This document shows positions 1,958-27,297 of a stretch of DNA of 37,543 bases, piece by piece. The position numbers and the translations under genes are program-made. How positions within the stretch are numbered: the first letter of the stretch is position 1; each line of letters opens with the position of its first letter. This DNA is from Hahella ganghwensis DSM 17046 (GTDB lineage: Bacteria > Pseudomonadota > Gammaproteobacteria > Pseudomonadales > Oleiphilaceae): NCBI RefSeq assembly GCF_000376785.1, contig NZ_AQXX01000078.1:1-37543 (forward strand), written 5' to 3'. A model generated the notes under the pieces. The model was not told the origin of the DNA. It saw only the letters and a program-made list of their open reading frames with translations, and did no database searches.

Positions 1958-3142
1958 TTATCTTGCTGTCATACGTCTCCTGAATCCGATGCCCGCGATG
2001 GCTAATCCGAGAAGTGCGATAGAAGCGGGAGTGGACACCTCAGTTTCCATCGGGGCACCGGCCAGAAGATAAACATCTGCAAAACCGCCGGTTTCGCAGT
2101 TGGTGGTTTCGCCGCCGTTGCCTTCATCTTCCAGGTAACCTAATCCTGGTTGGAAGCTACCGGATGCGGTTCCGCCGAAACAACCAAATAGCATTCTGGT
2201 TGAAACGGTGTCATACCCTTGTGCCAGGAGCGCTTCGAGAGTGGCGTTCAGCTCAGGCAAGAAGGCAAAGATTTCGGTATCTGAAGTGGATTGAGCGTTA
2301 TCAATCGCCGTTTCATATCCGGCAGGACACTGTCCACCAGGGATTGGCAGAATAGGAAGAATGCCGTCGTCATCAATACAGGTGACCCCATTGACCGTGG
2401 CGAAATCAGAAGACTCCGGTAGACTGTTAAACGTTTCCTCGGTGGTATAGGCATCATAGGTCAGGCCGGTTACCTGTCCTATTTCGTAATTGATATCTGC
2501 CAGTTGATTGTCAAGATCTTTTACAGTTACTAAAGCCCAGTAATCAAGTGAGGTTAATGAGTTTTGTGGCTGGTTGTAATCGAAGCCTATTGTCAGTTCA
2601 CGGCGAATGCCATCGATGGTCAGAGCTTCGATCAACCACTCAATGCCAACATCCCAGGTCCCTAGGGAATCTGCATCTTCGACGGAGTCCAGGTTATCCA
2701 GGCTGTTGTTGTCCGGGTCATTTAGATTTCCTGCTGTGCTACCGGTTTGGCCGGTGGCAAAGAAATCATCATTGGTTGTGTCATTGCTTTTGAAGCCATC
2801 TTCGACTTCTGCCGGACTGGGGTCAGTGTCAGAGTTTTCCTGGGCACCGCCCCCTGAAGTTAAAACAATATACGATTCCAGTGCTCCTTGAGGAGTGGGC
2901 AGGACATAACCGCCATTGGTAACAGTAGTTGTCGGATCCAGTCCACTTAGATAGTTGAGTAGAGGAGCGGAGCAACTGACAGCATCTCTGATCGTCAAAC
3001 ACCCACCCGAAGCCAGACCGGCTTCCCAATCTATGCCTCCCTCGTATATCCCCAGAGGACCTGCTTGAGCGGTTAACGGACTTAATGCAATACAGGCAGC
3101 TATGGCCCCTTTGGCTATAGGAAGGCACGGATGTGATTTCAT
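1958..3142 (-). CDS. Exported protein with PEP-CTERM-like sorting tail
   Basis: The protein has 394 residues from the ATG at 3142, which has AAAGGTG just upstream and opens a proper signal peptide (MKSHP, hydrophobic stretch, TAQA cleavage). An upstream in-frame start at 3229 would bury that signal. The middle is acidic and rich in Asn, Asp and Ser, as in surface proteins. The last 27 residues read STPAS, then a hydrophobic helix IALLGLAIAGIGF, then RRRMTAR. This has the tripartite PEP-CTERM layout, with S-T-P-A-S in place of P-E-P. Such tails are known to direct processing by an exosortase. No exosortase is in the window. The function of the exported part is unknown. Confidence 0.8.
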   Translation of the reverse strand: MKSHPCLPIAKGAIAACIALSPLTAQAGPLGIYEGGIDWEAGLASGGCLTIRDAVSCSAPLLNYLSGLDPTTTVTNGGYVLPTPQGALESYIVLTSGGGAQENSDTDPSPAEVEDGFKSNDTTNDDFFATGQTGSTAGNLNDPDNNSLDNLDSVEDADSLGTWDVGIEWLIEALTIDGIRRELTIGFDYNQPQNSLTSLDYWALVTVKDLDNQLADINYEIGQVTGLTYDAYTTEETFNSLPESSDFATVNGVTCIDDDGILPILPIPGGQCPAGYETAIDNAQSTSDTEIFAFLPELNATLEALLAQGYDTVSTRMLFGCFGGTASGSFQPGLGYLEDEGNGGETTNCETGGFADVYLLAGAPMETEVSTPASIALLGLAIAGIGFRRRMTAR

Positions 3143-3352
3143 TCTGGCACCTTTTATTGATAAATTGGGATTTAATTCCCAAAATGCAAATAGCGCGCCA
3201 TGGTTTTTTTTGTTTTTCCAGTCAAACAAGTTAGTAGCTTGGTCTCGTGTTGGTTTGATTACAAAGTGTAAAAGAATGTGACATTTTGGTGGCTTTTCGA
3301 CAGCTTAATTTGCCAGTTTCTGGTAATCAGAAGGGGCGACAAACCCTGAGGG

Positions 3353-4681
3353 TTAACCGGATAATTCAATGACGACGCAAAAGCGCTGGTTTTCCTTTCG
3401 GGTATGAAAAGACCAGTGCTTTTGTTCGCAGATTTTTTCCACCAGGAAAAGGCCGACTCCATAACCATAGTCTTTTGCCGGCAGGTCATCGGCTGTATGC
3501 ATGTAGGTGGCCTCTGCTTCCTGATTCTGACAGGGGTTAGTGATAATGAGCTTTGCTGGGGCTGGGGCAGAGACGGTATGAATATCGATTTCGCCTTCGA
3601 CAGTATACTGGAGGGCGTTTCGTATCAGATTGTTCAAGGCAAGCTTTAGAAGCGAAGGCGAAGTGCTTACCTCAACGGGCCCATCTATACGAATACTCAC
3701 TTCTACTGAGGGTTTCTGCAGGTATTTGTTATCTTTAAGCACTTGCTTGAGGAGTCTTGTGATATCGACTGGCTGTGTGTCAGTGACGGGATGAGCTCTC
3801 CAGAGGTCCAGAACTGTCTGGGAGAGTGTTTGCATGGTCTTCTGGGCGTTTTTTAACTTATCCCAATACTTTCTTTGCTCAATTGAGATGGCATTTCTGG
3901 CATCCAGTAACTGGATCGCGCCAGATGTAATGGCCATTGGTGTTTTAAGCTCATGACTGAGGACTTTCAGAAAGTCCTTCTCTTTTTGGTTGGCCTCTTC
4001 AAGTTGCCGGATGGCCTCGACAAGTGAGTCTGTGATGTTACGGGTTTCGTTGAAGCGATCAGCCGACGCCGGGGGGAGTGGAGGACTGCTGCTATCACGG
4101 AGTTGGTTGACCCAGGAGGAAAGATCCGAGACCGGCTGCCTGATGCGCTGACTGGTCCAGAACCCTGTCATGATTGCCAACCCAAATGAAGCGAAAAGTG
4201 CGACGTATAAGTTGCCGTATAATGTGGAGTACTCATCGTCCAGCTGTTTCGCGGTGAAGCGATGAATGACAAACAGCGTTTCTTTTTGGTCAGTTGACTC
4301 GGAGAGGGGAGAAGATTGGGAAGACTGGAAAGCGAGCAGATAGACGGTCTGATTCTCATGCTCTGCCAGCAATACTTCGCCATTGCGCCAGGATGCCGGG
4401 CGGAATATTGCAGTGACATCATTCGGTAGCTGGTCTTCGCCCCAGTAGTATTCTCGCAGGCCCGGTTGAAATTCCGGTAGATCCGGTGGTGAATAGTGAG
4501 CGTCGATCCACTCGGCTTCGGTATACATGTAGTATTCAGTTGATTCATCCAGGCTCAGATTCTTAAGATAGCGGCCAAGGAAGAGAGTCAGCAGGAGGAG
4601 TAGGCAGAGAACCGCCAGAAAGCGGGTAACGATATAGGATTGAATACCGAGTCTAACCTTCATCAGGTTTACCATCGTCAT
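3353..4681 (-). CDS. Sensor histidine kinase (two-component system)
   Basis: An inner-membrane kinase of about 442 residues. One membrane helix lies near residues 14-36, a periplasmic sensor region runs to about 155, and a second helix spans about 155-175, followed by a linker. The H-box LSHELKTP carries the phospho-accepting His243. The ATPase domain has an N-box (LALNNLIRNALQYT) and a G-box (YGYGVGLFLVEKI). The start is uncertain: ATGs at 4681, 4675 and 4663 all overlap the end of the response regulator gene (stop at 4653) and none has a clear ribosome site, so translation is probably coupled. The signal sensed is unknown; the sensor domain is not one I recognise. It forms one operon with the regulator upstream. 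Confidence 0.9.
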   Translation of the reverse strand: MTMVNLMKVRLGIQSYIVTRFLAVLCLLLLLTLFLGRYLKNLSLDESTEYYMYTEAEWIDAHYSPPDLPEFQPGLREYYWGEDQLPNDVTAIFRPASWRNGEVLLAEHENQTVYLLAFQSSQSSPLSESTDQKETLFVIHRFTAKQLDDEYSTLYGNLYVALFASFGLAIMTGFWTSQRIRQPVSDLSSWVNQLRDSSSPPLPPASADRFNETRNITDSLVEAIRQLEEANQKEKDFLKVLSHELKTPMAITSGAIQLLDARNAISIEQRKYWDKLKNAQKTMQTLSQTVLDLWRAHPVTDTQPVDITRLLKQVLKDNKYLQKPSVEVSIRIDGPVEVSTSPSLLKLALNNLIRNALQYTVEGEIDIHTVSAPAPAKLIITNPCQNQEAEATYMHTADDLPAKDYGYGVGLFLVEKICEQKHWSFHTRKENQRFCVVIELSG

Positions 4682-5342
4682 TTTTTCGCAGCGTCACTCC
4701 CACGCCCTTAATGGTATGGATCAGTGGTGGCAGGTTTTCCAGGTTGATCTGCTGCCGCAGGCGATAAAGCTGGGTTTTCAGCATCGCATCAGTGGTCTCC
4801 TGATCTCCCCAGACGGCGGTTTGTAATTCACTTCTTGAAACCACGCCGGGGCTTTGTCGAATGAGTCTGATCAAGAGCTCCCACAGGATGGAGGAAAGGT
4901 GAATAAGGTGACCGTCCCGTTTAACGATCCTCTGCTCCAGATCAACATATAGATCTTCCAATTGGAAGATGGCCGGTGTCGGACGGTATCTGTTGGCCAG
5001 AGCCTTGATTCTGGCCGCCAGCTCCGGGAATTCGAAGGGTTTGGCGAGATAGTCGTCGGCACCTTTGGCAAATCCTGTCAGCTTATCGTCGAGGCTGTCC
5101 TGAGCGGTCAAAAATAATATGGGCATCTGCGGATAATGGCGTTTTGCTGCCAGACAGACCTCGTGACCATTGAGCCTGGGCATCATGACATCCAGAATCA
5201 GAACATCGTAGGTGTTCTGCTCCAGAAGTAACATTGCCATTCGGCCATCTCTTGCATAGTCACATTCAATCTGCTCATCAGCCAGATATTCAATGATCAT
5301 TTCGGCCAGATCACTTTCGTCTTCGGCCAGCAGAACTATCAT
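4653..5342 (-). CDS. OmpR/PhoB-family response regulator
   Basis: The 229-residue protein has a receiver domain with acidic pocket AEDE (residues 6-9), phospho-acceptor Asp51 in LILDVMMP, and the conserved Lys101 in LAKPFEFPEL. Its C-terminal winged helix (about 125-222) has the OmpR-type ending TIKGVGVTL. It is the first gene of the pair with the kinase and is transcribed divergently from the amidohydrolase at 5441. Three direct repeats in the shared intergenic region (5357-5386) have the spacing expected for tandem binding of such a regulator, so autoregulation and control of the amidohydrolase are likely (inference). Confidence 0.93.
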   Translation of the reverse strand: MIVLLAEDESDLAEMIIEYLADEQIECDYARDGRMAMLLLEQNTYDVLILDVMMPRLNGHEVCLAAKRHYPQMPILFLTAQDSLDDKLTGFAKGADDYLAKPFEFPELAARIKALANRYRPTPAIFQLEDLYVDLEQRIVKRDGHLIHLSSILWELLIRLIRQSPGVVSRSELQTAVWGDQETTDAMLKTQLYRLRQQINLENLPPLIHTIKGVGVTLRKNDDGKPDEG

Positions 5343-5356
5343 GATGTTTATGTACC

Positions 5357-5386
5357 CTGTTACTTTAACTGTTACCTTGCTGTTAC
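5357..5386. promoter_or_regulatory. Three CTGTTAC direct repeats, likely response-regulator site
   Basis: CTGTTAC occurs exactly at 5357, 5369 and 5380, so the units are 12 and 11 bp apart, about one helical turn. OmpR/PhoB-type regulators typically bind such in-phase direct repeats. The site lies 15 bp before the regulator's start on one side and 54 bp before the amidohydrolase start on the other. Confidence 0.6.
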
Positions 5387-5440
5387 CTGGGTAGGACTAC
5401 TCTTTGGGCATGTTCAATGCCAACAATAGAGGTGAACCTG

Positions 5441-7255
5441 ATGAATATGCCCCTGATACCCCTGAGTCTGCACAAGCTAAACAGACATTCGAAGACTTTC
5501 CATCATACAGCGACTAAGTCATTTAACCCATACTCCGTTGGATGGGCCAGTTTGAAAGGAATGTTGATGTTGGCAATGATGGCGGGGGTATCAGCCTGTT
5601 ATTCAGGCGGCGCCGAATCGGCTCAGGCAAGTACGGAGGATTTGGCCTCGGAAGCTGCTGACCTGCTACTGACCAACGGAGCGGTTTATACGGTGGATCG
5701 CTCAAACAGTTGGGCGGAGGCCGTGGCAATCAAAGATAACAGGATTGTGTTTGTAGGGGATACTGAATCGGCTGAGTCATTTATCGGATCGAATACCAGA
5801 GTCATGGACTTGCAGGGAAATATGGTCATGCCGGGGTTCCATGACGTTCATATTCATGCGCTGGAATCAGGTTCGGACAGTAATCACTTTATACTGGATT
5901 CAGAGGAAACCGATGCCGAGAGTTTTGTTTCTGAGATTCAGAAATCTGCACGAGGTCATCCGGACGTATCCTGGTTAATCGGGTATGGCCACTCAATATA
6001 TGCGTTACTCGAAGCGGAACGCTCACCGCTGGAGATACTTGATGAAGCCGTACCAGACCGTCCGGTCATTATCATGGAGCAGACTTCCCATTCAATGTGG
6101 GTGAATTCAAAGGCGCTGGAAGAGATGAACATCAATGCGGCCACCTCTGATCCTCAGGGAGGCATTATTATGAAAAACGAAGACGGGAGTCTTAGTGGAA
6201 TTCTGATAGATAACGCTGGTGATATGGTGATGGAGCGAGCGATGAATGCGAATCATCTGACCGCTGAAAGTGATTACCTAAGTCTCAAAGAATACACCAT
6301 GCCTGAGTTTGCCAAGCATGGGATTACCTCGGTTGTGGATGCAAGAGGGTATTGGCAGCGAAATCACCATAAAACATGGCAGCGCCTGGCGGATAATGAT
6401 GAATTGACCATGCGGGTCTCGCTGGCATTGTGGGCATATCCTGAATTGGACGATCAGGTACAATTAAACACTTTGACCTCGCTGTATCGTCAGAATCCTG
6501 GCGGATTGCTCAGGATCAATCAAATCAAGCTCTACAGTGACGGAATTCTGCACAACACTACAGCAGCACTTAAACAACCCTACGATATCAATTTGCTGAA
6601 TATTCCCGGTAATCGGGGACTCAACTATTTCACACAAGAACGAATCGAGAAATACATCACTGCGCTTGAGCCGGTCGGGTATGACTTTCTGATACATGCG
6701 ATCGGAGATCGGGGCGTCCATGAATCATTGAATGCTATTGAAAACGCCGGAACACAGGCAGGGCGACATCGGCTGACGCATGTTGAGATGGTGGATTCTG
6801 AAGACCTGCCTCGATTCGCTGAGCTGAATATTACGGCGGATGCCCAGGTAGCCGGGGAGTTTACCCAGCCTTCAATGTGGCATCACAATGATGAGCTCGT
6901 CGGCACCAGTCGGGCTGACAACCTGGTGCCAATAAGAAGTCTGCGCGAAAACGGTGCCAGAGTAACGCTCAGCAGTGATTGGAGTGTCAGCCCTTTCAAT
7001 CCCATGATCGGGCTGCAAAATGCCGTGACCCGAGATCCACAGGCTCTGTCGCTGACTCAGGCCATTCGTGCCTACACCATTGATAGCGCCTACAGCATGA
7101 GACAGGAAACTCAGACCGGGTCGATCGAGAGCGGAAAACTGGCTGATTTGATCATTCTGGACCGGAACCTGTTTGATATAGCGCCGGAGAGTATTCATCA
7201 AGCTAAGGTACTGATGACGATCTTTGATGGTGAGGTTATTTTTGAGCAGAGGTGA
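5441..7255 (+). CDS. Amidohydrolase, YtcJ-like (Amidohydro_3), possible lipoprotein
   Basis: A metal-dependent hydrolase of about 604 residues. The start at 5441 is preferred because GAGGTG sits 7 bases upstream; an ATG at 5417 adds eight residues. A long basic N-terminus precedes a hydrophobic segment ending in VSAC, a lipobox-like site with Cys53, so the enzyme is probably membrane-anchored in the periplasm. The catalytic domain starts at LLLTNGAVYTVD. The metal-binding HIH of MPGFHDVHIHA lies near residue 139, followed by HAIGDRG, HVEMVD and the Asp-containing SSDWSVSP. The substrate is unknown; relatives act on amides or cyclic imides. It is divergent from the two-component genes and probably under their control. 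Confidence 0.88.
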   Translation: MNMPLIPLSLHKLNRHSKTFHHTATKSFNPYSVGWASLKGMLMLAMMAGVSACYSGGAESAQASTEDLASEAADLLLTNGAVYTVDRSNSWAEAVAIKDNRIVFVGDTESAESFIGSNTRVMDLQGNMVMPGFHDVHIHALESGSDSNHFILDSEETDAESFVSEIQKSARGHPDVSWLIGYGHSIYALLEAERSPLEILDEAVPDRPVIIMEQTSHSMWVNSKALEEMNINAATSDPQGGIIMKNEDGSLSGILIDNAGDMVMERAMNANHLTAESDYLSLKEYTMPEFAKHGITSVVDARGYWQRNHHKTWQRLADNDELTMRVSLALWAYPELDDQVQLNTLTSLYRQNPGGLLRINQIKLYSDGILHNTTAALKQPYDINLLNIPGNRGLNYFTQERIEKYITALEPVGYDFLIHAIGDRGVHESLNAIENAGTQAGRHRLTHVEMVDSEDLPRFAELNITADAQVAGEFTQPSMWHHNDELVGTSRADNLVPIRSLRENGARVTLSSDWSVSPFNPMIGLQNAVTRDPQALSLTQAIRAYTIDSAYSMRQETQTGSIESGKLADLIILDRNLFDIAPESIHQAKVLMTIFDGEVIFEQR

Positions 7256-7313
7256 GTCATAGGCAGAGGTGAGCCATAGATAGCCGAATATAAACAACGA
7301 TTATATCAATCTG

Positions 7314-7340
7314 AAAGCCTCCGGAAGGGGGCTTTTTCTT
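7314..7340 (+). terminator. Rho-independent terminator of the amidohydrolase gene
   Basis: AAAGCCTCC pairs with GGGGGCTTT (one T-G wobble) around a GGAA tetraloop, and T-rich TTTTTCTT follows. It lies 59 bases past the stop at 7255. Confidence 0.88.
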
Positions 7341-18681: not shown

Positions 18682-19332
18682 ATGAACGTTCAACGGTTCA
18701 AATACCCTCGTACACCTCATCTTCCATGGTCTCCGGGATATACGGCCGACGATATTCGGCAATCGGATTCTCATGGATTTGAAAACAAAGAAGTGGTGAT
18801 CACCGAAAAAATGGATGGTGAATGCACGACCATTTATCGGGACTATATACACGCACGTTCGATTGACAGTCGACATCATCCATCAAGAAACTGGGTGAAA
18901 GCCTTGCAGGCTCGTCTTGCCTCGGATATCCCCGAAGGTTGGCGGATTTGTGGTGAAAATCTTTATGCAAAACATTCGCTCTTTTACTCCGACTTAGACA
19001 GCTATTTTTATGTGTTTGCTATATGGGATGAGAATAATCGCTGCCTGAGCTGGGATGAATTACTTGAATGGACGGAGCTGTGTAAGCTTCACACCGTACC
19101 TGTCATTCATAGAAGCATGTGGGATGAGCGTATGGTCAGAAATATCAATGTCGACGAATCCAGGATGGAAGGGTACGTTGTACGAACAGCAGAAGGTTTT
19201 GATTATTCAGATTTCAGCATTCATTTTGCCAAGTGGGTAAGACCCAATCATGTGCAGACGGATACCCACTGGATGGCGCAATCGGTTGTCCCAAATAAGC
19301 TAAAACCAATGGAAGGGGCTGAAAATGAATAG
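18682..19332 (+). CDS. RNA ligase family protein (first of two)
   Basis: A 216-residue ATP-dependent nucleotidyltransferase-fold ligase, expected to seal 5'-phosphate/3'-OH RNA ends. Motif I ITEKMDGE carries the AMP-accepting Lys43. The others follow: motif Ia around SIDSRHH, the family stretch CGENLYAKHSLFY (90-102), motif III YVFAIWDE, motif IV RMEGYVVR (161-168) and motif V FAKWVR with Lys184. All nucleotidyltransferase motifs are present, but there is no extra C-terminal domain. AGGAG 7 bases before the ATG supports the start. Its last 8 bases overlap the start of the HD-Pnk gene. It shares KYPRTxH at the N-terminus with the second ligase of the operon. Confidence 0.88.
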   Translation: MNVQRFKYPRTPHLPWSPGYTADDIRQSDSHGFENKEVVITEKMDGECTTIYRDYIHARSIDSRHHPSRNWVKALQARLASDIPEGWRICGENLYAKHSLFYSDLDSYFYVFAIWDENNRCLSWDELLEWTELCKLHTVPVIHRSMWDERMVRNINVDESRMEGYVVRTAEGFDYSDFSIHFAKWVRPNHVQTDTHWMAQSVVPNKLKPMEGAENE

Positions 19333-20617
19333 ACGTTCCTGGCTCCAGTCATTGGCGCTGGATGGCACACCGTCAATTGATGAGTGTATAGATCAGTTAG
19401 GAGATACTTTTCCACTGCTACATCAGTTCAAGGCGACCGAACAAGACCCTCAATGGCATGCCGAAGGCGATGTACATATCCATACAGGTATGGTTTTAAC
19501 CGAGCTATATCAATTGTTGGAGAGTGAAGCCTGCCATATCCAAGGAGAGAAAAGACAAGCTTTGGTGCTGGGTGCTTTGTTGCATGATATTGCCAAGCCG
19601 CTAACGACCCGACGCAGAGAGGTGAAGGGGATTGAGCGTGTCATTGCAACCGGACATGAAGCAATGGGAAGGTCTTATATCGCCCACAGGATACTCAATC
19701 TGGAACTACCCAATGAGGTGGTGGATTTGGTGATGGGGCTGGTTGGGGAGCATCACAGACCCAAACTCCTGGTCATCAAACAAATGGAGCGCGGTGAGTA
19801 CTGGAAGCTCGCTAGAAAAGCTTCGCCCGAGCTGCTTTATTGGCTGGAAATTGCTGATATGAGAGGTCGAATTTGTGAAGACCTGAATGTGCAAATTGAT
19901 CTATTAGAGCAATTTCGTTTGTTCAGTGAAGAGTACGAGGTCTGGAACTCCCATTTGCCATTGGAACAACTTCGTTGCGATTTGGAATCTCATGTCGAAA
20001 ATTTGCAGCCCAGTGTTAGAGACATGATCTTTGCACGAATCATGCGAGATTTCGAGGAAGGTGATATTTCAACCCTGGAAGAAGGAATAGCGCGGACCTA
20101 CTCTCTAAGAAGCGGTTTCAGTGAGGTGTATATATTGTATGGACCCAGCGGCTCAGGCAAGTCTTCTTGGATCAAGCGTTTCCTTCCTGATTGTGAAGTG
20201 ATCTCTCTTGATGAGCTGAGAGAAGAAATCAATAGTGACAGATCGGATCAATCGAATTTAAGCCAAATTCTTAATACTGCGCGTGAAAGGCTGAAAGTTT
20301 GTTTACGGGCTAAAAAAAAGGTGATCTGGGATGCGACAAACTTACGAGAGGATTTCAGACAACGGATTTGTCGAGTCGCATTCGACTACCACGCTTTCGT
20401 GACGATGGTGGTCATTCACAAGTCTGAACTTCAGCTTTTTGCAGATAATAAGAACCGGCCGCATCCCGTACCGGAAGAAATTCTTCGAAAGCAACTGGAT
20501 CAACTGGAATGGCCGGTTCCAGAAGAGGCGCATAGATACTGGATTGTTGACGGCGAAGGTCAGGTCAGAAAGTTGTCTGGTGGATTTTGTGAGGATCGTC
20601 ATGATGGAGTTCATTAA
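19325..20617 (+). CDS. HD-Pnk: HD phosphoesterase fused to polynucleotide kinase (RNA end healing)
   Basis: The 430-residue bifunctional protein has an HD metallo-phosphohydrolase domain (about 40-200) with metal ligands His53 (VHIHTGMV), His87-Asp88 (LLHDIAKP), His111 (GHEAMG), His143/His144 (GEHHRPK) and Asp178 (IADMRG). A P-loop kinase domain (about 265-410) has Walker A GPSGSGKS (273-280), catalytic Asp296 in SLDELR, and DATN (336-339). This matches HD-Pnk enzymes, known from work on Runella: the HD part removes 2',3'-cyclic or 2'/3' phosphates and the kinase phosphorylates 5'-OH ends, producing ends a ligase can join. It overlaps both flanking ligase genes, consistent with coupled translation and a joint repair role. 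Confidence 0.88.
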   Translation: MNRRSWLQSLALDGTPSIDECIDQLGDTFPLLHQFKATEQDPQWHAEGDVHIHTGMVLTELYQLLESEACHIQGEKRQALVLGALLHDIAKPLTTRRREVKGIERVIATGHEAMGRSYIAHRILNLELPNEVVDLVMGLVGEHHRPKLLVIKQMERGEYWKLARKASPELLYWLEIADMRGRICEDLNVQIDLLEQFRLFSEEYEVWNSHLPLEQLRCDLESHVENLQPSVRDMIFARIMRDFEEGDISTLEEGIARTYSLRSGFSEVYILYGPSGSGKSSWIKRFLPDCEVISLDELREEINSDRSDQSNLSQILNTARERLKVCLRAKKKVIWDATNLREDFRQRICRVAFDYHAFVTMVVIHKSELQLFADNKNRPHPVPEEILRKQLDQLEWPVPEEAHRYWIVDGEGQVRKLSGGFCEDRHDGVH

Positions 20618-21374
20618 ATATCCTCGAACCAATCATATCGAAGGGGCCAGGTTTACTTGTAACCCTCTAGATCTGAAGAAAATCAAGCTCGAGTCCGTCG
20701 CAGGAAAGCATCTCGTGATTGAAGAGAAAATGGATGGAACTCAAGTCGGTATCTTCTTTGAGAGACAGGACTTTCCTCGTATACAGAGTCGCGGACACTT
20801 TATCGACGAAGTATATAACCCAGAGTTTGATTTACTGAAAAACTGGCTTGCGACACATCGCGAATCTCTCTGGGAAGTGCTCGGTGATCGATACATATTG
20901 TTTGGCGAGTGGCTATTCGCAAAACACACGCTGTATTACGATCAATTACCTGACTTTCTGTTGGAATACGATATCTATGATAGAGAACTTGGCGCCTTTC
21001 TGAACACTTCCCGTCGACAGGAATTGCTTAAAGATTTAGGTTTTCTGTCTTCTGTTAGAGTCGTTGGACAAGGCATGTATTCAACAGCTTATGAACTGTA
21101 CAGATTGACTGGTGATTCAAACTTTGTCTCCTCCAATCAAAAAGAAAACTTTCTGAAGTCTGTATCGCAGAAAAACCTAGATCCTGATATTGCGACCAAG
21201 CAAACGGATCTATCTGGAAAGATGGAGGGGCTTTATATAAAGCATGAACATAATGGAATTGTAAAAAGCCGCTACAAGTTCATCAGAGCTGAGTTTCTCG
21301 CTAGGATTATTGAGCTGCAAGAACACTGGAGAGATCGAGCAATGATTAGAAATCTAATTCTTGGGTATTCGTAA
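20601..21374 (+). CDS. RNA ligase family protein (second of two)
   Basis: The protein has 257 residues from ATG 20601, with GAGGA 5 bases upstream; a second ATG at 20604 is equally possible, and a much longer in-frame extension to 20439 only shadows the HD-Pnk gene. Motif I IEEKMDGTQVG places the nucleotidyl Lys at 43, as in the first ligase. Motif Ia is QSRGHF, then FGEWLFAKHTLYY (101-113), motif III LEYDIYD, motif IV KMEGLYIKHE (207-216) and motif V SRYKFIR (near 226). A C-terminal helical tail of about 30 residues is absent from the first ligase. The two ligases are paralogues of one family, yet differ enough to suggest different substrates. It ends the operon. Confidence 0.87.
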   Translation: MMEFIKYPRTNHIEGARFTCNPLDLKKIKLESVAGKHLVIEEKMDGTQVGIFFERQDFPRIQSRGHFIDEVYNPEFDLLKNWLATHRESLWEVLGDRYILFGEWLFAKHTLYYDQLPDFLLEYDIYDRELGAFLNTSRRQELLKDLGFLSSVRVVGQGMYSTAYELYRLTGDSNFVSSNQKENFLKSVSQKNLDPDIATKQTDLSGKMEGLYIKHEHNGIVKSRYKFIRAEFLARIIELQEHWRDRAMIRNLILGYS

Positions 21375-22108: not shown

Positions 22109-23515
22109 ATGAATCATTTAAGGCACAGTATTTCCTCTTACCGTTGGGGGCGATTTCTACCCCCGTTGGTCTTTCTGATCCCAATACTATTTCTGATACT
22201 TCTGATACCTGCTATCAGCGCCCGGACTCTGGCGGTTGAGATCGTTGTGGCGACTGTCGACAACGCTGACATGCTCAACATGAAAAAGCTTTCCAGTCGA
22301 TTTGAGGAGCAGAACAAGGATATCCGGATTCGCTGGAAAATCGTTGATGAAAGTGTCTTGCGCCTGATGCAGGCCAACGACAGCAAACAAGGAAAGTCCC
22401 AATATGATGTGTATACGCTGGGATTGTTTGAAGCGCCTATTTGGGGAAGCAAAGGTCGACTTTCTCCGGTCCCGGACAATTTTCAATCCAGCAAAGAGCT
22501 GACTAACTGGATACCTGAAATACTTGATGGCTTTAAATACGGTGACAATTATTATGCCTTGCCGTATTACGGGGAAAGTTCCATTACCTACTACCGTAAA
22601 GATGTGCTCGAGCAGTATGACCTGCAGATCCCAATGCAGCCTACCTGGCGGGATATTGAAGGTACTCTGGAAGTTCTGAGCAGAGTCTCCGGTGGCAAAA
22701 AGGGAAAACTTTGCCTGAGGGGAAAACCAGGGTGGGGGGAAAATATTGTGATTCTGGCCACTATGGTGAATGGCTTTGGTGGTCGCTGGTTTGATGAAGA
22801 CTGGCAGGCAGTACTTACAGAAAAACCCTGGCATGATGCGATCGACTTCTACCTATCGGTCATGGAGAAGTATGGACTGGAGCAGGCCTGGAATAACGGT
22901 TACTCGGAAAATTTGCAGGCATTTTTGAATGGGCAGTGCGATATCTGGGTGGACTCCACGGCTGCCGGTGGTGCGGTGGCGTCCGGGGAGATATATCCCA
23001 ATGTCGGCTATGCCTCAGCGCCTATGCAGATCACGGACAAAGGAACCAACTGGTTATGGTCCTGGGGGTTCGCAGTGCCAAAAGGTTCCACCAAAAAAGA
23101 AGCGGCCTGGCGTTTTGTTAAATGGGCGACTTCAGACGATTATCATCAACTGGTTGAAACGCATTATGGAATTGCGCAGGTCCCTCCAGGTACTCGTTAT
23201 ACGCTATACAGAAATCCCTCCTACCGGGAATATGCCCGGTTCGCGGATATCACTCTGGAAGCCATTGAGAGTGCTGATTTTGATGCGCCCAGCGTGAAGC
23301 CTGTGCCTTATCGGGGCATCCAGTTTATTCAGGTGGAAGAGTTTCAGCAGATTGGCAACTTTGTTGGCAAGAAGCTCTCGGAGATGCTGAAGCAGGCACT
23401 AGACGACGGTGAGTCAGTGAATCTGGACAGAGAACTGAAGCGGATGTCGGAGTTTGTTCAGGCCTCTCACAATATTGCTGAGAGGCTCAGGCAAAAGGGG
23501 CTCGATGCGTATTGA
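22109..23515 (+). CDS. Extracellular solute-binding protein (SBP_bac_1, sugar/polyol type)
   Basis: The 468-residue periplasmic binding protein has a signal sequence with a long hydrophobic core (residues 17-35, cleavage near SARTLA). The mature part matches family 1 binding proteins of the sugar-alcohol or maltose class: YDVYTLGLFEAPIWG, YALPYYGESSITYYRKDV, CLRGKPGWGEN, GQCDIWVDSTAAGG and WLWSWGFAVPKGSTKKEAAWRFVKWATS. GAGGG 8 bases before ATG supports the start. No permease or ATPase gene is nearby, so it either shares a distant transporter or acts as a sensor partner. It is convergent, with a 13-bp gap, with a homologous two-domain protein. Confidence 0.88.
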   Translation: MNHLRHSISSYRWGRFLPPLVFLIPILFLILLIPAISARTLAVEIVVATVDNADMLNMKKLSSRFEEQNKDIRIRWKIVDESVLRLMQANDSKQGKSQYDVYTLGLFEAPIWGSKGRLSPVPDNFQSSKELTNWIPEILDGFKYGDNYYALPYYGESSITYYRKDVLEQYDLQIPMQPTWRDIEGTLEVLSRVSGGKKGKLCLRGKPGWGENIVILATMVNGFGGRWFDEDWQAVLTEKPWHDAIDFYLSVMEKYGLEQAWNNGYSENLQAFLNGQCDIWVDSTAAGGAVASGEIYPNVGYASAPMQITDKGTNWLWSWGFAVPKGSTKKEAAWRFVKWATSDDYHQLVETHYGIAQVPPGTRYTLYRNPSYREYARFADITLEAIESADFDAPSVKPVPYRGIQFIQVEEFQQIGNFVGKKLSEMLKQALDDGESVNLDRELKRMSEFVQASHNIAERLRQKGLDAY

Positions 23516-23528
23516 GCCACTTTAGAGA

Positions 23529-25568
23529 TTATTGGTAGTAACCGGAGTCTTTCATCTGTCGCAGAATCAATTGCTGGGACTCCCTCAGGGCTTCTTCTGC
23601 GGTCATTTTTCTCTCCAGCATATTGGCAACATTCAGGCTGACGGCTCGTCCAATCGAGGGGAATTCGGGAATGGCGACCAACTGAATACCGGTATAGGGA
23701 GAAGGTTCCAGAGTCTGATTTACCGGGTCTGCGGTCTGGATTGCCTGCAGTACAAAGTCAGAAAATGGTGCAGCCTTTCTGTACTCTTCATGCTCGTAGG
23801 TGGATTGGCGGGTGGCTGGAGGTACGGATACCCAGCCATTGGTTTTGCCAACCATCTCGATATAACCTTTTGATGTGGCCCAGGTAATAAACGCCTGGGC
23901 AGCATATCGGTTACGGGAAGACGACGGAATTGCCAGAGCCCATGACCATAACCAGTTGGCTCCGCGCACGACGGTTCCTATCGGAGCGGAGGAGAAGCCG
24001 ACTTTGTCGTGCACCCTGGATTGATTGGGATCGAACAGAAGGCCGGCGGCAACGGTGGCATCCACCCACATGGCGCACTTGCCATCGGCAAATAGCTTAA
24101 GCGTTTCGTTAAACCCATTGTGGGTGACATTTGGCGGGCCGTAATGACTGAGAAGTTCTTTGTACAGAAGAAAGACTTTCAGCCAGGGCTTGGTGTCCAA
24201 TTGGGGTATCCAGCCGGGATCGAACCACCGACCGCCAAAGGTGTTGACCATGGTGGATATGATGGTGATATTTTCGCCCCAACCGGGTTTACCGCGCAGA
24301 CAGATTCCATAAACCCCATTGTCCGGGTCATGCAGTCGGGCGGCAAACTCTCGCATTTCATGCCAGGTGGGTTGGTCTGGCATCACCAATTCAGCCTGGG
24401 CAAACAGGTCTTTGCGGTAATAGGTCATGGAGCTTTCCGCATAGATTGGCAGAGCATAGAGCGTATCTTTATAGGACAGGCTGTTTCTGACAGTTTCAAA
24501 GATATCGTTGACATCATATTCGTCAGATAGATTGACCATTGGTACCAGCCACCCTTTTTCCGCCCAGAGTGGGGTCTCATAAGTACCGATGGTGATAACG
24601 TCGAATCGCCCGTCAGAGATGGCAAAATCACTCAGTAAGCGGCGTCTTAGCGTATTTTCATTCATCACTCTCCAGTTGAGCTGAATATCGGGATGCAGCT
24701 TGAGAAACTCTCTGGAGAGTTCTTTGATGACTTTCATTTCCGCATTGTTTACGGTACCGATGGTCAGCACGGTTTGGGGGAGGGCGGCAATACTGTTTGG
24801 TCCGAATCCGTGTTCCGCCATAATCTGGTCAAGTTTGCCGTTTTCTTTCAGTAGCTGAAGGCCGACGTTGAATTTCTGCCAAAGCAGGAAATGGTTGGAT
24901 TTGTTACGCGGAAAGCCCACCTGAAATCTGACGTTCAGCAGTGGAGGCTCAATAAACTCAAGACTCCCAATCATATGAGGGCGCTGTAACACGATCAGAT
25001 CTGCAGCGGTGTACTTATCCATGTAGGTGAAATCAATTCGGCCCCGGAATAGCTTATCCAGGTTGTTGAGGTCCGTGCGGACAAAATCCTTGCGAATGCC
25101 TCGAGTGTTTTCGAACAGTTTATTGATGTTCTCACCGGATACCAGTCCCAGGCGATAACCCTTAAGAGCCGTCTGGATTTCGGGCAACGTTCTGGGGGGA
25201 GGAGAGGGCCACTTGGCCTTTGAGTCCTTCTTCTTCAGCAGACCGATAGAGCCACCGGGAAAGGGATCTGACAGCAGAAAATCCTCGTCATCTTCGGTAT
25301 GAATAATGAGTGGGAAGTAGCCGTCCACAATGCCCTGTATAGCGCTCTCTCTGGCTCTGGGAAGTGGCTGAAAGGTGAGATTGACGTCGAGCCCGGCTTC
25401 CTGAAAGGCGGCTCTCAATACCTTGATAGCGTAACCCTGGTCCTCCAGATGCTGGCCAACATAAGGCTCGCGCTCCCAGACAGCGAGAGATACGGGGTCT
25501 TCGGCATGGCAAATAACGCCGAAAAAGACGAAAGCGGTTGCCATGAAAAGCTTTATTGTTAGACGCAT
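23529..25568 (-). CDS. Double solute-binding protein: SBP_bac_3 fused to SBP_bac_1
   Basis: The 679-residue exported protein has a signal peptide (cleavage after CHA near residue 22). Residues about 25-255 form a family 3, amino-acid-type binding domain (LAVWEREPYVG, GYAIKVLRAAFQEAGL, YRLGLVSGENINKLF, LDQIMAEHGF). Residues about 265-640 form a family 1 domain homologous to the neighbour at 22109: TVNNAEMKVIKELS, YALPIYAESSMTYYRKD, CLRGKPGWGEN, FGGRWFD, CAMWVDATVAAG, WLWSWALAIPSSSRN. There is no frame break at the junction, so the fusion is real. No transporter subunits are encoded nearby. It lies 159 bp downstream of the retron reverse transcriptase on the same strand. Ligands are unknown. 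Confidence 0.87.
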   Translation of the reverse strand: MRLTIKLFMATAFVFFGVICHAEDPVSLAVWEREPYVGQHLEDQGYAIKVLRAAFQEAGLDVNLTFQPLPRARESAIQGIVDGYFPLIIHTEDDEDFLLSDPFPGGSIGLLKKKDSKAKWPSPPPRTLPEIQTALKGYRLGLVSGENINKLFENTRGIRKDFVRTDLNNLDKLFRGRIDFTYMDKYTAADLIVLQRPHMIGSLEFIEPPLLNVRFQVGFPRNKSNHFLLWQKFNVGLQLLKENGKLDQIMAEHGFGPNSIAALPQTVLTIGTVNNAEMKVIKELSREFLKLHPDIQLNWRVMNENTLRRRLLSDFAISDGRFDVITIGTYETPLWAEKGWLVPMVNLSDEYDVNDIFETVRNSLSYKDTLYALPIYAESSMTYYRKDLFAQAELVMPDQPTWHEMREFAARLHDPDNGVYGICLRGKPGWGENITIISTMVNTFGGRWFDPGWIPQLDTKPWLKVFLLYKELLSHYGPPNVTHNGFNETLKLFADGKCAMWVDATVAAGLLFDPNQSRVHDKVGFSSAPIGTVVRGANWLWSWALAIPSSSRNRYAAQAFITWATSKGYIEMVGKTNGWVSVPPATRQSTYEHEEYRKAAPFSDFVLQAIQTADPVNQTLEPSPYTGIQLVAIPEFPSIGRAVSLNVANMLERKMTAEEALRESQQLILRQMKDSGYYQ

Positions 25569-25727: not shown

Positions 25728-27065
25728 TCATTGATCGGGCCATTGAATTTTTTGATATAGAGTCATTAGCTTGTCACCTTTTTGCGGGTTCAACGACCTC
25801 AGGTAAGCAATTTTACCTTTCAAATGCGCCTGAAAATTCGGGAGTTGTTGGTGATTCTGACTTATGGGACCGTGCCTGGCGCAGTTGTTTAACATGGCTT
25901 TCAATGAATCGAATTGCTTTCTTGAAAGGTTGGTTTTTTCGTTAACCACTATTCCGGCCACCTGCTGGCGCTGTCCCTGACCCACCACGGCACTTTTTCG
26001 AGTATTCAGGGAAAAGCCTTCTTCTTCTGCAATCGCCCCCACAAGGTGCTGTAGTTTTTCAGCGGCATGTTGACTCATTCCAGGGCCGGAAAGCACAAAG
26101 TCATCGGCGTAACGGCTATATCGATAGCCCATCTTTTTTGCCAGGCCACTAAGTCTGTTGTCCAGCATTGCCGCGGCAAGATTAGACAGTATGGGAGACG
26201 TCGGTGCTCCCTGGGGGAGGTGAGGTCGTCTGAACAGTTGAATATCCCGCTCAGTCATTATTCCCGGTGGGGGTCTTAATTTTGCCCTCGGTGTTTTGTT
26301 GGTCGACAGTCTTGAGAGAATCTGAGTCACCCGATGGTTGTACCCCAGGCGGCGAAATATTCTGTATACCTGCTGGTAGCCGATGGATAGAAAGAAGTCC
26401 TTCAGATCAAATTTGAGAAGTAAGGATTGTCCCTGGTGCAGTCTCGCGTGAGTCAAACAGGAATGACCTTGCCGATAGCCCTGGACTCCAGAATGCAGGG
26501 GAAGGGGGGATAATATTTCCCGGTGGATTCGGCGTTGCAGGCTTTTCAGCAGTGGCTTCGGGGACTCCAGCAATCTTGCTCCGCCTCTGGGTTTCTCCAG
26601 CCAGCGGTAATGATAATGTTGTAGACGGGAGTCTTGACCAAACTCCTCGCGGTACTCATTGATCAACCAGAGCAGATCATGGTGAGATAAGTGGAGCCAT
26701 GCCAGAAGGTCACCCTCAGTTGCCAGTTTTGGCAGATTACATACCTCGACAGGGCAATTGGAGGGAAATGTTGGCGGAAGCGTCTGGCATTTAATATGGC
26801 GAATGCGAGGCGTTGTGTCCTCTTCCACAAATGCCAGCAGAAAGTCTTCACAATCCAGAATAGCTTCTGTTAACTGGCGCTTAAGCGTTTCGGAGTCTTC
26901 CCCTTTGACGAAGTCCGGGGATCTGCCGAGTGCAACCAATGGGCTGAGCCATTCAGGCTCTTCCCCCAAAACCTTTGTCAATCTCTGCCTTTGGGAAGCT
27001 ACATCCCGCGGACCAGATAGCAAAGTCTCCGCCAGAGAGGTGGCGACCCAACGTTGGTAATTCAT
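25728..27065 (-). CDS. Retron-type reverse transcriptase
   Basis: The protein has 445 residues from ATG 27065; an upstream in-frame TTG at 27110 lies inside the retron RNA's a2 repeat and is rejected. Polymerase motifs in order are WLEKPRGGARLLESPK, KFDLKDFF with a catalytic Asp (near 220), LPQGAPTSP (283-291), SRYADDFVLSG with the YADD metal site (319-322) and VAGIVVN (369-375), in place of the usual retron VTG. About 150 residues precede the fingers, longer than in minimal retron enzymes and, from memory, like myxobacterial-type retron enzymes. A matching msr-msd RNA gene lies just upstream (27098-27262). Together they should make a branched RNA-DNA molecule. No separate effector is recognised. 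Confidence 0.92.
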   Translation of the reverse strand: MNYQRWVATSLAETLLSGPRDVASQRQRLTKVLGEEPEWLSPLVALGRSPDFVKGEDSETLKRQLTEAILDCEDFLLAFVEEDTTPRIRHIKCQTLPPTFPSNCPVEVCNLPKLATEGDLLAWLHLSHHDLLWLINEYREEFGQDSRLQHYHYRWLEKPRGGARLLESPKPLLKSLQRRIHREILSPLPLHSGVQGYRQGHSCLTHARLHQGQSLLLKFDLKDFFLSIGYQQVYRIFRRLGYNHRVTQILSRLSTNKTPRAKLRPPPGIMTERDIQLFRRPHLPQGAPTSPILSNLAAAMLDNRLSGLAKKMGYRYSRYADDFVLSGPGMSQHAAEKLQHLVGAIAEEEGFSLNTRKSAVVGQGQRQQVAGIVVNEKTNLSRKQFDSLKAMLNNCARHGPISQNHQQLPNFQAHLKGKIAYLRSLNPQKGDKLMTLYQKIQWPDQ

Positions 27066-27097
27066 GATGAGTACATCGTCCCTGGCGGTGAAAAAAG

Positions 27098-27110
27098 AAC
27101 AACACTTCAA
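27098..27110 (-). repeat. Retron a2 repeat
   Basis: TTGAAGTGTTGTT on the minus strand, the exact reverse complement of the copy at 27250-27262. It sits 32 bases before the reverse transcriptase start. Confidence 0.8.
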
Positions 27111-27249
27111 CCAACTCGTGTTGCCGGTAAAGTATCTGCGCGCATAGCGCAGGGCCTTACCGGCGGTGATATGTGTCGTTGACGTTTAACCCCGGGGTAA
27201 CCCCGGAGTTTCCGGTGACAAATGACTGACTCATTGCTTCCGGAATCGC

Positions 27250-27262
27250 TTGAAGTGTTGTT
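27250..27262 (-). repeat. Retron a1 repeat
   Basis: AACAACACTTCAA on the minus strand, pairing with a2 at 27098-27110; 139 bases separate them. The G expected to prime reverse transcription follows immediately. Confidence 0.8.
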
Positions 27263-27268
27263 GGGGGC

Positions 27269-27297
27269 AAAGTAGATTGACTGATGCTTATTGTCAA
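27269..27297 (-). promoter_or_regulatory. Sigma-70 promoter of the retron
   Basis: On the minus strand, a consensus TTGACA (27297-27292), a 17-bp spacer and TACTTT (27274-27269) lie so that transcription should begin near 27262, the first base of a1. The RNA and the reverse transcriptase gene are probably one transcript. Confidence 0.7.

Follow-up and report, generated by a model that had tools for sequence, protein, structure and literature searches.

The stretch of DNA analysed here (hereafter the window; 37,543 nucleotides from Hahella ganghwensis DSM 17046) carries a reverse transcriptase (RT) gene that is directly preceded by a segment, positions 27098-27297 on the minus strand, with the appearance of a retron RNA gene, and it raises the question of whether this RNA is indeed a reverse-transcription template and how such a retron might act with no toxin gene found at its side. 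According to PMC6868368, the ends of the msr-msd transcript pair with each other in studied retrons, and priming takes place via a 2'-5' bond at a G that terminates the 5' arm on its inner side. Read from 27297 to 25728 on the minus strand, on which all features of the locus lie, the window displays, in this order, a -35 and a -10 element, the arm a1, a G, two hairpins, the msd hairpin, the arm a2, a T-rich run and the RT gene. The first-pass annotation had described a perfect 13-base repeat ahead of a retron-type RT, and we found the arms a1 (AACAACACTTCAA, 27250-27262; the 5' end of the RNA and its predicted transcription start) and a2 (TTGAAGTGTTGTT, 27098-27110) to be exact reverse complements over 13 bases with a spacer of 139 bases, the RT start codon (ATG, 27065) being located 32 nt past a2. 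A mechanically called open reading frame opens at TTG 27110 inside a2; alignment of the homologues favours ATG 27065 as the start of the RT. Within the RNA, a1 is followed by the predicted 2'-5' priming guanosine (27249), which resides, as previously noted, in an AAGCGA context (CAAGCGA), by a putative msr hairpin 1 of variable sequence (27210-27245), by msr hairpin 2 (CTCCGGGGTTACCCCGGGG, 27190-27208) with its GGGG-NNA-CCCC core, 9-bp stem and 3-nt loop, which is predicted to be the RT-binding element, and by the msd hairpin (27123-27164), the predicted msDNA template, which is composed of an outer stem, an internal loop and a 6-bp tip (27152-27136).

The a1/a2 repeat is the sole perfect 13-mer inverted repeat with a spacer of 100-200 bases in the window, and its length falls within the 8-30 bases expected of retrons. 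By itself it is only mildly unusual and not decisive, since at least one such repeat turned up in 12 of 200 dinucleotide-shuffled versions of the complete window. The region from 27262 to 27098 folds at -76.6 kcal/mol (z = -7.65), a value that none of 200 shuffles equalled. Further evidence was obtained from an alignment of 28 RNAs, comprising that of the window, those of 20 close loci, three from Hahella, one from the same family and three from Burkholderia. The RNAalifold consensus of these sequences has 31 pairs, 21 of which show double compensatory changes; 95.8% of the 867 cells are paired, compared to 81.7 +/- 0.8% in shuffled alignments, and the covariation score amounts to 0.414, compared to 0.157 +/- 0.011, none of 500 shuffles reaching either value. 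Controls in which the structure was slid along the alignment gave at most 49.7% paired cells and a covariation score of at most 0.109, a contrast that is flattering because the rows scored here had also served to derive the structure, and the number of further pair types is a weak measure of covariation, as it was attained by 44 of 500 shuffles. A fold arising by chance is ruled out by the z-score and the covariation.

Compensatory changes are abundant in the a1/a2 duplex and in both stem and tip of the msd. Double changes occur in six of the nine consensus pairs of a1/a2, the other three being invariant, and in 12 of the 13 pairs of the msd helices 4 and 5. In msr hairpin 2, four G-C pairs are identical in all 28 RNAs and three of nine pairs show double changes; the rows of the alignment were initially chosen by the GGGG..ACCCC hairpin, so that the conservation of this element is biased and that of the a1/a2 and msd pairs is not. 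CAAGC is likewise present in 28 of 28 RNAs. The proposal of two msr-like hairpins and a two-part msd hairpin holds in part: hairpin 2 and the msd hairpin belong to the consensus and fit the layout of retrons (one to three msr hairpins with stems of 7-10 bp, followed by the msd), and hairpin 1 is weaker. The latter is predicted at the same place in the relatives, ranks within the best 5% against mononucleotide shuffles in just 12 of the 28 sequences, and lies outside the consensus structure, being poorly placed by MAFFT. It is the conservation, rather than the repeat alone, that settles the reading as retron RNA, and, at the level of sequence comparison, the segment 27098-27297 is confirmed as a retron-type msr-msd RNA gene in which each known retron element has a counterpart that is either invariant or supported by covariation.

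The occurrence of the RNA was compared with that of the RT. When GTDB species genomes were scanned with the RT, 42 loci were obtained, of which 22 are close (E <= 2e-86) and the other 20 distant (E >= 2e-55); the close ones stem from two Hahella (CCB-MM4 and HN01), from 18 Oxalobacteraceae/Burkholderiaceae records (Massilia, Duganella, Rugamonas, Pseudoduganella and one Burkholderiaceae MAG), from an Acidobacteria MAG and from a Massilia MAG. The RNA is kept in 21 of the 22 close loci, 20 of which are included in the alignment and one of which, in Massilia rubra (L040), was recovered by model search; in the remaining locus (L018), where no RNA match was obtained, the RT is cut off by the contig end. 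Loci that keep the RT and have lost the repeat or hairpins, named beforehand as an outcome that would speak against a retron, were thus not encountered among the close relatives. A covariance model built from the alignment (R1) also detected the RNA just upstream of the RT in two loci outside its training set (L088, 3e-29; L087, 3e-19), in L040 3.3 kb upstream of the RT (2e-34, likewise outside the training set), and, as a weak match (3e-4), in Tsukamurella (Actinomycetota; L085), again outside the training set, where the match ends 8 nt before the annotated RT. The 20 distant RT loci did not match R1 (best L026, E 0.1), and the RNA therefore belongs to the RT clade of the window. Draws of 274 genomes of the class and 398 of the phylum, scanned with stricter filters at which some weak matches are lost, gave two R1 matches each: the genome of the window itself in both, one further genome (G180) in the former with the match adjoining an RT frame, and one (G484) in the latter with the match 22 nt upstream of an RT match. 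The RTs beside the matches of both draws all belong to the clade of the window RT. Searching the phylum draw with the RT identified four genomes at E <= 1e-60, two of which (G699 and G701) have no R1 match; their RTs show 42-43% identity within residues 119-451, and inspection by eye reveals a comparable upstream layout of other sequence. R1 did not match the loci L089 and L090 (RTs 42-43% identical), upstream of whose RTs a diverged retron-like layout can be made out by eye, consisting of an imperfect repeat (GCAACG...CTG / CAG...CGTTGC) and a hairpin (GGGGTATCCCC). In the G484 locus (L088), the RNA matches the model well and the matched RT stretch contains one TGA.

Within the genus, the RT is near full length in five of the six other Hahella genomes and sits in two chromosomal contexts, one shared by the window and CCB-MM4 and another common to the other four. 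Among 30 other genomes of the family, a strong RT match was obtained in a single one (G029). One congener (G003) gave neither an RT match nor a match to the methyltransferase, and the search for an empty site there was unproductive. Four of the six other Hahella genomes additionally have a different, longer RT frame of about 590 aa that is 34-35% identical to the window RT, and the genome of the window itself harbors a second, apparently broken RVT_1 match (C75, 32018-32755), a 255-aa frame with a TGA within part of the match.

A structure conserved directly ahead of a gene might also act in cis on the RT mRNA, as its leader or attenuator, and not be reverse transcribed. The RNA does sit in the leader of the RT gene, and a2 is directly followed, between RNA and RT gene, by a T-rich run (CTTTTTTC, 27090-27097). 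However, its layout is that of an msr-msd, with a1/a2, an AGC box, a 9-bp/3-nt hairpin and an msd hairpin, and the best structural matches of the adjacent RT are retron RTs (see below). In addition, RNA and RT are naturally split in Massilia rubra L040: about 3.3 kb, including a P-type ATPase frame (2760-5138), lie between the RNA (2488-2657) and an open RT frame (5983-7323), and the promoter-like boxes are kept with the RNA. As a leader would hardly survive such a separation, this arrangement counts against a leader, even if the insertion could be recent, and we regard that explanation as very improbable. The T-rich run could act as a weak terminator and give more RNA than RT mRNA.

A TTGACA/17/TACTTT promoter with its start at a1 had been suggested, and both boxes were confirmed as promoter-like elements: the putative -35 element TTGACA is located at 27292-27297, with a TTGA box at the same register in relatives as a raw observation, and the putative -10 element TACTTT at 27269-27274, separated by a 17-base spacer. 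Transcription is expected to start about 7 bases downstream of a -10 element, and the first base of a1 lies 7 bases past TACTTT. In a survey of 32 loci, in which a script selected the top-scoring -35/-10-like hexamer pair of each locus relative to the CAAGC box, the -10 element of this pair ended 16-22 nt ahead of the box in 24 loci by raw count. Of the eight others (L019, L006, L007, L009, L013, L017, L087 and L085), five (L006, L007, L009, L013 and L017) have an in-register pair that is visible by eye.

The RT gene (25728-27065) encodes 445 aa, which by sequence and predicted fold constitute a retron RT. RVT_1 is the only Pfam family above cut-off, NCBIfam retron models match below their cut-offs, and the PADLOC models RT_other (1e-122), RT_outgroup (1e-117) and RT_XIII (9e-89) match in the same order in the window RT and in five relatives scanned. 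Among proteins of solved structure, Ec86 (4e-58) and Ec67 are the leading sequence matches. When an AlphaFold2 model (pLDDT 83.6, pTM 0.62) was compared with the PDB using Foldseek, ranks 1-18 were all retron RTs, with query-normalised TM-scores of only 0.41-0.50; the best match, Ec86 (1.8e-19), reached 0.50. In an alignment of 24 RTs (20 clade rows and four outside rows), YADD is present in all rows; motif X, for which NAxxH is the retron yardstick, reads HAxxH in the window and 18 further clade rows, FAxxH in L019 and NAxxH in the four outside rows, and motif 7 at the start of region Y, with VTG as its yardstick, reads VTG in 15 of the 20 clade rows and VAG in the window RT. According to passages of PMC6868368, known retrons also vary at motif X and motif 7, the N of motif X being replaced in two of 16 validated retron RTs (Ec48 and Mx65). 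In the Tsukamurella locus, YGDD replaces YADD at the active site of the RT (4590-5861). In an RT tree of 37 rows, drawn with a midpoint root and leaving out the Tsukamurella protein, all RNA-bearing rows together with L089 form a single clade of 25 rows (support 96/99), and seven Hahellaceae rows group together (99/97) with six Hahella rows within (95/89). The N-terminal 85 residues or so (26811-27065) are confidently predicted to form a helical unit (AF2 pLDDT 85), for which searches of Pfam, NCBIfam, BFVD and the PDB, the latter by both sequence and fold, returned nothing significant; its best Pfam side-match, TetR_C_13_2, was obtained at E 0.0036 in two of 24 whole proteins, and saposin-like PDB matches, at E above 1, do not constitute evidence.

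How, then, does the system relate to those already known? It is best taken as a retron of known kind, and the newness of its RNA, which the first-pass annotation had supposed may be undescribed, can be judged against Rfam 15 and the literature searched; msr-msd covariance models exist in PADLOC as well (PMC9252829). Rfam 15 gave no match at gathering score in the window and only snoRNA noise (E 2.5-4.6) around the RNA, so that a group II intron or another Rfam RNA, having no covariance model match, is ruled out. No description of the RNA was encountered in the searched portions of the literature, including PMC12548924, PMC12262390, PMC8867640, PMC8565338, PMC9252829, PMC12405507 and PMC6868368. 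The closest characterized relative is Ec86 (Eco1), the best PDB match of the RT in both structure and sequence. However, the Ec86 chain comprises 320-349 residues in the PDB compared to 445 in the window RT, and Ec86 has been solved in complex with an effector (7v9x), whereas no linked effector was found for the window retron. Passages of PMC6868368 state that the Ec86 and Ec73 RTs recognize an msr hairpin of 8-9 bp with a 3-nt loop, that of Ec86 having 8 bp where the window hairpin has 9, and that the usual priming box is TAGC, with five variants listed; the AAGC of the window is not among these. The AGC of the box is shared by the myxobacterial retrons Mx162 and Sa163, which have CAGC and are reported in the same source as likely vertically inherited. 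RT_other and RT_outgroup, the top models for the window RT and the five relatives, cover part of the N-terminal extension, and these labels name no effector; an experimentally studied member was not identified among the RTs so labelled. Type XIII retrons are similar in that RT_XIII is the third-best model with 297 bits over the RT part, but this model scores about 112 bits below RT_other and leaves residues 1-123 of the 460-aa frame unmatched. A long RT with an N-terminal extension is also a feature of Mx162 and Sa163.

The locus had been called a complete retron, which holds true for the RNA plus RT and not for an effector, as none was found linked to them. Apart from the RT, no gene family occurred in more than six of 30 clustered loci (6-20 kb per locus), and no operon partner that widely recurs was found among the loci examined. 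The clustering is rough, since genes were taken as longest frames, which are unreliable because GC-rich DNA can give shadow frames, and the RT itself was lost in seven of the 30 loci. The recurring families mostly reflect local synteny, and an effector limited to one lineage would be compatible with this comparison. In many loci the next gene is on the opposite strand, and neighbours vary between lineages. Those in the window (solute-binding proteins, a methyltransferase and an MCP) look metabolic or sensory and, among the loci compared, are found at the same place only in Hahella CCB-MM4; a PADLOC scan of nine other window proteins yielded two matches, the methyltransferase (mad2, 8e-15) and the MCP (LmuB, 7e-4), which probably reflect general methyltransferase and coiled-coil features. 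Since no partner gene recurs widely, the locus looks, as far as compared, like an RNA-plus-RT retron with an N-terminal helical domain and no linked effector.

Three readings of this situation have to be weighed. According to the first, the locus is a once-tripartite retron that has lost its effector and is now either in decay or retained in a secondary role, as might be suggested by the lack of a widely recurring partner, the motif departures of the RT and the TGA within the matched RT of G484. However, the partner is absent across the clade, the RT frames are long and open in the window and 21 further loci, and the RNA pairs are under constraint; moreover, had the effector been lost recently and independently in several lineages, remnants of it should be seen. 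We therefore consider this history unlikely. According to the second, the retron acts with an unlinked, perhaps housekeeping, host factor instead of an effector of its own. The variable neighbours, the frequent opposite orientation of the next gene and the maintenance of the RT in five of six other Hahella genomes in two chromosomal contexts are in line with this idea, and the vertical inheritance reported for myxobacterial retrons in part of PMC6868368 provides a precedent; no candidate factor has been put forward, and we take it as a serious possibility of somewhat less than even weight. The third reading, that of a functional two-component retron consisting of the promoter, the msr-msd RNA and an RT that copies the msd into single-stranded DNA, with no linked toxin, is in our view very probably correct. 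What speaks against it is that the priming box and the RT motifs X and 7 depart from the usual ones, that R1 does not match L089 and L090, that the RT match in G484 contains a TGA, and that a linked effector was not found. As no linked effector was found, such a retron would act either in a self-contained manner or with an unlinked partner.

For this two-component retron, the following course of events may be envisaged. A sigma-70-type promoter, whose boxes recur in register, would transcribe the msr-msd from a1 on into the RT gene. The a1 and a2 arms pair, as the covariation shows, and thereby bring the CAAGC guanosine to the duplex end, where, by analogy to known retrons, it may serve as the 2'-5' primer. 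The RT would recognize the conserved 9-bp/3-nt msr hairpin, copy the msd hairpin into single-stranded DNA and stay bound to the RNA-DNA hybrid. Assuming that copying begins immediately inside a2 and stops at the base of the msd stem, the product is predicted to be about 56 nt in length, or somewhat more. The RT-msDNA complex might then work alone, perhaps via the N-terminal helical domain of the RT, or together with an unlinked host factor. Anti-phage sensing may be the likeliest role, a weak suggestion by analogy with other retrons.

A further, more tentative hypothesis is that of an effector-less retron lineage with an msr-msd family of its own, characterized by the AAGC box and the GGGG-NNA-CCCC hairpin, in which the N-terminal helical domain replaces the toxin that is otherwise a separate protein and which extends over Hahellaceae, Burkholderiales, an Acidobacteria MAG and possibly Actinomycetota; we consider it conceivable but rather doubtful. 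If true, sensing and killing, or a housekeeping role, would be united in one protein plus one RNA. Irrespective of this, a template RNA supported by covariation is now at hand for an RT clade that PADLOC labels only as 'other' or 'outgroup'. The shape of this RNA is preserved in distant bacteria with no recurring partner gene found alongside, which suggests that members of the clade move as a unit of RNA and RT with no toxin gene next to it, and makes it possible to test directly if a retron can do without an effector encoded alongside. A compact msr-msd with a short msd is thereby added to those for single-stranded DNA production.

Two other features of the window may be mentioned. At 18682-21374, two genes of the RNA_ligase family (18682-19332 and 20439-21374) surround a gene with HD and AAA_33 domains (19325-20617), an arrangement that looks like an RNA repair cluster. 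At 22109-25568, two related SBP_bac_1 genes are convergently oriented (22109-23515, plus strand; 23529-25568, minus strand), the second with an extra N-terminal region, and this pair is also convergent in Hahella CCB-MM4.
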